Shown here piece by piece: positions 12,305-12,777 of a stretch of 64,000 nucleotides of DNA. Source of the stretch: Thermoplasmata archaeon (GTDB lineage Archaea; Thermoplasmatota; Thermoplasmata; Halarchaeoplasmatales; Halarchaeoplasmataceae); assembly GCA_003554965.1 (NCBI GenBank), contig PWHR01000085.1, positions 62,001-126,000 on the forward strand. Direction: 5' to 3'. The position numbers and the translations under genes are program-made. How positions within the stretch are numbered: position 1 is the first letter of the stretch; each line of letters begins with the position of its first letter. The notes beneath the pieces were generated by a model. The model did no database searches, was not told the DNA's origin, and saw nothing but the letters and a program-made list of their open reading frames with translations.

Positions 12305-12379
12305 TTTTTCATCACCGCCCTTGAAATATATTATAAATATTTAAATCTTTCGAAACATATATTGTTGGATATTATCTCC

Positions 12380-12598
12380 GGAACCAAATTCCTACGATCG
12401 ATGTAATTGTCAAACAATTCTAGTAGATATTTCTGGAACTTTACACGGAACTTGTTCCGTGAAGTATCAGAATTTTCTTTGAAAATTCTAATGATAGAGG
12501 AATTATTATTCCTCTAATCGATGGAAAATTAAAAATTTTCCAGTAGATGTTCTAGATATCTTAGGAAAGTGATCTTTCCTAAAAGAAGTTTCGACTTC
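12380..12598. repeat. Array of eight consecutive small hairpins, non-coding
   Basis: Between two divergent genes lie eight back-to-back inverted repeats: 12380-12392 (4 bp arms), 12405-12419 (AATTGT/ACAATT), 12444-12461 (CACGGAAC/GTTCCGTG, 2 nt loop), 12469-12489 (AGAATTTTC/GAAAATTCT), 12496-12515 (AGAGGAAT/ATTCCTCT), 12523-12541 (GGAAAATT/AATTTTCC), 12561-12582 (TTAGGAAAG/CTTTCCTAA) and 12585-12598 (GAAGT/ACTTC around a TTCG loop). Arms differ in sequence from one hairpin to the next but pair perfectly. The short spacers recur: ATCGATG occurs before the second and sixth hairpins, and AGTAGATRTT occurs after the same two. The array is palindromic in the sense that either strand folds. It does not resemble a CRISPR, tRNA, rRNA, or known archaeal ncRNA. 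Function unknown. Confidence 0.85.
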
Positions 12599-12707
12599 CA
12601 CTATAATTCACAAAGTCAAAAACGTTTAAAAAATCGGCCTAAAAATAAACATCACCTTTAAAACTAATTATAAAAAAAGCTACAAATACAAGGCAAATGT
12701 CCAAAAA

Positions 12708-12718
12708 AATATTTATAG
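12708..12718 (+). promoter_or_regulatory. TATA box of the surface-protein gene
   Basis: AATATTTATAG lies about 65 bp before the ATG at 12778. It would place the transcription start near 12740 and give a leader of about 40 nt containing a strong ribosome binding site, AAGGAGGA at 12763-12770. The hairpin array ends 110 bp upstream of this box, so it would not be part of this transcript unless another promoter is used. Confidence 0.55.
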
Positions 12719-12777
12719 GGGTGACATCATCATTGCGGCAGTTCCAATTGTTTACACTCTAAAAGGAGGAACTATAG

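Follow-up and report, generated by a model that had tools for sequence, protein, structure and literature searches.

Nested hairpins in a Thermoplasmata genome: probable gene-less mobile elements, possibly recognised as folded single strands

REPINs of bacteria are pairs of REP copies in inverted orientation that bear a GT[AG]G foot, and they are linked to a RAYT transposase. The attC arrays of integrons are recognised by their GTTRRRY/RYYYAAC boxes, with cassettes between the sites and an integrase. A standard enzyme of the IS200/IS605 type needs a conserved tetranucleotide in the left flank of its target. Compensatory changes in the stems of REPINs are described in the literature (PMC3116915). 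For the double-hairpin elements of Allomyces, flanking duplications are said to be absent and a route through RNA and reverse transcription is suggested (PMC2800124). A survey of HuH proteins gives archaea the IS200 subclass only of these enzymes (PMC6006769), and Rickettsia palindromic elements are described as inserting in frame (PMC10969869). Among the titles and passages of the open-licence literature that were searched, no archaeal description of such elements was found, and one may still exist. The closest kinds to the elements described here are the mitochondrial double-hairpin elements, the bacterial REPINs and the elements derived from IS200/IS605; the full fit is to none of them.

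The window, i.e. the whole stretch of 64,000 nucleotides that was analysed, carries an intergenic hairpin array at positions 12380-12598. Five hairpins with perfect arms of 8-9 bp and loops of 2-4 nt occupy positions 12444-12461, 12469-12489, 12495-12516, 12522-12542 and 12561-12582. The initial annotation had counted eight perfect hairpins; the remaining three are weaker, with stems of 6 bp at about 12405-12419, of 4-5 bp (GGAA/TTCC) near 12380-12392, and of 5 bp at about 12584-12598. Beyond the array, just one more hairpin with such arms and loops was present in the 64 kb window, and dinucleotide shuffles of the window (n=300) gave at most two such hairpins per 220 bp. Folding was far better than in the shuffled controls on both strands, with z values of -5.1 and -4.9 and none of 200 shuffles as good. 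The hairpins are genuine and well above chance. The recurring spacers that had been noticed were recovered within a 44-nt repeat, the copies of which lie 120 bp apart and are 70% identical. These copies had been explained by the local duplication of a unit that then evolved in place; they are instead two separate copies of a minus-strand module, TCTAC[hairpin]TCGA, which would have been inserted separately as copies of a dispersed element. Furthermore, folding pairs TCTGGAAC (12432-12439) with GTTCTAGA (12549-12556). Because this outer stem surrounds four hairpins, the array is nested rather than merely tandem.

The basic element is a double hairpin of about 53-62 nt that carries no gene, TCTAC[hp1]TCGAnn[hp2]nnn. 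In module X, which is frequent among the loci read, TCTAC[TGGAA..TTCCA]TCGA is followed by a second hairpin. A DNA search with the array returned many partial matches on further contigs of its own genome and matches, mostly strong, in every one of the family's 15 other genomes, whereas other families of the class matched only weakly. Of the 16 family genomes, the host among them, 15 contained the strict X pattern, which was missing from all 134 other genomes of the class and had no match in the reversed control; a sample of the phylum yielded one further match only, with its inner arms unpaired. Confinement of the X-type element to one archaeal family, in the samples searched, is thereby strongly supported. 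The nearest named records, reached through the ArgRS sequence, are the Thermoplasmata MAGs B1Sed10_20 and T1Sed10_113R1, which we take, by their sample names, to originate from soda-lake sediments; a search with the PKD protein led to no named relative. A hairpin survey of 436 kb counted 54 hairpins where 33 were expected, part of them clustered. Viral carriage was considered and rejected, the four pattern matches in viral contigs having no foldable stem and being taken as chance. A number of arrays are situated at the ends of contigs or close to them (contigs C82, C96, C45 and C32 of genome G000), so that the copy numbers in the assemblies are probably underestimates.

Movement of the element was approached purely by comparison, through uninterrupted homologues of interrupted genes that composite flank searches had found. 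For a TnpB gene, the empty site CCCTTCACAGCG in locus L159 corresponds to a 54-nt insertion in L141; a Y1 transposase gene is empty in L162 and filled by about 53 nt in L077, and a third gene is filled in L142 and empty in L168. At these sites no target-site duplication was detected beyond at most one ambiguous base. An RHS gene, filled in L154 and L133 and empty in L174 and L180, is consistent with this, though its right junction is less exact, and the junction of L138, ambiguous over a few bases, likewise gives less exact support for insertion. Both orientations relative to the gene were seen. The insert in TnpB brings an in-frame TAG and the transposase reading frame of L148 is broken; in L154 the insert is in frame and leaves the RHS reading frame open, though the gene has a stop elsewhere. 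Taken with the dispersed copies and the nested insertions described below, these comparisons strongly support that the X-type element is multicopy and mobile and enters genes and other hairpin elements, and that it inserts in either orientation without target duplication. A mobile-element relic had been one of the options offered at the outset, and the dispersed copies together with the filled and empty sites speak for it. We consider it probable that the array consists of small, gene-less, non-autonomous mobile elements nested in one another, which would be recognised in a folded single-stranded form and moved in trans. In the RHS-type gene, the units found at the same place in L154 (genome G009) and L133 (G005) are identical at 59 of 60 positions across two genera, and their flanks are far more divergent.

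The whole nested array extends over 12375..12605, as delimited by folding, shuffles and module coordinates, and all its parts given here are read on the minus strand. Its outermost part belongs to a larger element of 93-98 nt composed of hairpins A and B, with the ends TATAGT and ACTATA and the terminal inverted repeats TAGT/ACTA. One end of this A-B element, TATAGTGGAAGTCGAAACT, is the outer arm of hairpin B at 12587..12605; the same end occurs elsewhere, its commoner form being GTGGAACTCGTAAC. The far end is decayed and possibly lies around 12342-12356; a pairing TCGAAAC/GTTTCGA for this end is suggestive only. When L117, L120 and L016 are compared with intact copies, the inserted units fall in the loop of hairpin B. 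Hairpin R (TCTTTTAGGAAAGATCACTTTCCTAAGA, 12559..12586) has the same place in L016, L017, L019 and L120. The outer hairpin O, uninterrupted in L017, has its first arm TATCTAGAAC at 12549..12558, which pairs with 12432-12439, and its second arm GTTCCAGAAATA at 12428..12439, assigned by folding. Inside its loop is an X-W unit. The first hairpin of this unit is the module X at 12518..12547, TCTAC[TGGAAAATTTTTAATTTTCCA]TCGA, defined by the module pattern, and the second is hairpin W at 12441..12463, TTCACGGAACAAGTTCCGTGTAA; the unit is found as X-W without Y-Z in L012 and L141. Hairpins Y (12495..12516) and Z (12466..12495) form a nested pair: L077 is X-W, and in L018 the same site has X and W separated by an additional Y-Z pair, which is the order of the window. 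A second X module at 12398..12427, TCTAC[TAGAATTGTTTGACAATTACA]TCGA, shares its inner arms and loop with the X of L013 and L117; its outer pairs have decayed without compensation. The weak stem TCGTAGGAATTTGGTTCCGGAGA at 12375..12397 is, by its position after TCGA, the decayed second hairpin of that unit. We thus read the array as an X-W unit in a hairpin loop, a Y-Z pair within X-W, a decayed second X unit and an A-B end. About eight distinct nested insertions were counted by eye, a count subject to detection bias, and every one is in a loop or junction, so that a preference for such positions is suggestive only.

At two empty sites of the A-B element a single TA or TG is present; where the element is inserted, TA flanks it on either side, a pattern that fits a TA-duplicating MITE. 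The A-B element resembles MITEs in its inverted ends and TA duplication, but differs in that a search of 11 family genomes turned up no DDE_3 (IS630-type) transposase; an IS630-type enzyme was for this reason rejected as the mover. In another family of the class, a double hairpin with the ends TATAGTC/GACTATA (L201/L256:789-900, G026:C72) has a layout like that of A-B.

Stem variation was then examined among the copies. The X pattern leaves the inner arms unconstrained in the pairing test. Among 47 distinct X sequences, Watson-Crick pairing was found at the four inner positions in 45/47, 43/47, 41/46 and 30/38 cases, where shuffling gave means of 27, 22, 16 and 11; these shuffles ignore the kinship of the copies and overstate significance to some degree. 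Most pairs also covary among the second hairpins (36 distinct sequences), with T.G and C.A tolerated at one position; the innermost of the pairs tested did not reach significance. As judged from these alignments, the sequence of the stems changes across copies while pairing is kept, and the earlier description of arms that vary with compensation between fixed spacers holds across the dispersed copies. Comparisons of copies at the same site are few. The differences of L133/L154 and of L021/L025 are restricted to one side of the stem; they are also one-sided in L113/L114/L115, of which the poorly aligning flanks make a shared origin less certain, and L091/L142, which may be independent insertions, have one two-sided change. 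Such mostly one-sided change is the outcome that the initial annotation had itself named as refuting the selection on structure which it proposed for the locus. Since stems are paired across copies and change one-sidedly at one site, pairing seems to be needed for movement and not at the resident site.

The same variation bears on a self-templating origin of the stems, in which one arm is recopied from its partner at each jump, or by template switching at replication, so that any change turns palindromic immediately and without selection. Variation indeed grows from the base of the stem to the apex, the loops have a random appearance (NN takes five different forms in TTTGC-NN-GCAAA), and swaps of TA to AT and of CG to GC, for which no wobble intermediate exists, are common. 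We nevertheless hold this origin to be doubtful. One-sided changes remain uncorrected in resident copies, indicating that a simple correction at replication is not efficient, and the gradient from base to apex would also fit the recognition of the stem base plus structure.

A site-specific multi-hairpin ncRNA, or a protein-docking array, under selection at this place would agree with the strong folding of both strands and the intergenic location. It is extremely improbable given the context of the locus. In the nearest relatives, roughly 80-100 bp upstream of the PKD orthologue are conserved and the array is absent. Moreover, related modules interrupt genes, copies at the same site change mainly on one side, and an Rfam search of the window gave nothing at the array, its sole match being a tRNA. 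The segment directly upstream of the PKD protein gene that is conserved in the nearest relatives, 12700-12777, is probably the promoter of this gene, and the array lies outside it.

For the mobile elements, our best guess is single-stranded DNA transposition in trans. The element would be recognised as a folded single strand, its two hairpins forming a nicked dumbbell, and would be moved in trans; the most likely agent is a single-strand transposase, of the HUH/Y1 type or another. If only copies with paired stems move, mobile lineages would gather compensated arms and resident copies would decay one-sidedly. The lack of target duplication fits an HUH enzyme, and Y1 transposases occur in most, not all, family genomes, part of them incomplete, with no linkage of Y1 domains to the units seen. 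The X units share with non-autonomous elements derived from IS200/IS605 the hairpins near both ends and the absence of target duplication. They differ from them in the left flanks (n=52), where conservation does not exceed 0.36 bits per position and a conserved tetranucleotide is lacking. No similarity of their ends was seen to those of L070, the one IS200-type copy read closely. The missing tetranucleotide and the incomplete distribution of Y1 argue against the standard IS200/IS605 scheme, and the Y1 transposase was rejected as the cognate enzyme on account of the tetranucleotide and of the ends not shared with L070. L077 was rejected as a REPtron, as the array beside its Y1 gene turned out to be an insertion into the gene. 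In L087, an array likewise adjoins a Y1 gene and resembled a REPtron at first sight.

Alternatively, a transcript of the double hairpin could be reverse transcribed and then inserted. Such an RNA route would account for the lack of target duplication, an argument also made for the Allomyces elements (PMC2800124). It appears quite improbable here: of 11 family genomes, a single one yielded a reverse-transcriptase domain, in the form of a fragment containing a stop, and strand bias is absent both in folding and in the orientation of insertions. Returning to single-stranded transposition, we suggest very tentatively an undescribed class of archaeal mobile DNA, in which a single-stranded dumbbell would insert without duplication, preferentially in loops and junctions of its own kind, with stems self-templated during movement and an enzyme new for such elements; this broader proposal is rather unlikely to hold as a whole.

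Compared with the known systems, the archaeal units are like mitochondrial double-hairpin elements in being gene-less, mobile and dispersed, with two adjacent hairpins and no target duplication. The likeness is one of layout: the host is an archaeal chromosome, the spacers TCTAC and TCGA are fixed, and a GGAA/TTCC core is shared. With REPINs the units have in common that they are small, palindromic and non-autonomous and show compensatory stem changes. Unlike in REPINs, the 5′ foot is TCTAC, with GTAGA on the 3′ side on the other strand, and the two hairpins differ in sequence and flanks and are not inverted copies; a RAYT linked to the units was not seen. Small palindromic mobile DNA found in genes is also known as MITEs and as Rickettsia palindromic elements, and one RHS insertion is in frame; unlike MITEs, the X units lack the duplication, and in non-RHS genes they disrupt the reading frame or bring in a stop. 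In contrast to attC sites, the X consensus has by inspection no AAC/GTT core and there are no cassettes between the hairpins. The X-type elements, with their many copies, several filled and empty pairs and numerous covarying stems, correspond in archaea to the double-hairpin elements of mitochondria. They make testable how gene-less hairpin elements move without target duplications, and whether it is selection or self-templated copying that produces compensated stems.

A few further loci were noted. A transposase/integrase-like gene (L091:10880-11500, G000:C62) contains two double-hairpin units, and the site of the second is also filled in its homologue in L142, from another genus. On the same contig, hairpins lie directly 3′ of a tRNA-like gene (L092:7774-8060, G000:C62), perhaps a tRNA-Trp with a long intron, as assigned by eye with no call from ARAGORN or Rfam. 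At L113:2699-2919 (G006:C21), a match to the Rfam tRNA model spans 221 bp; in it a long insert comes after a CAT-like anticodon loop, and a four-hairpin array is found within this apparent tRNA intron.
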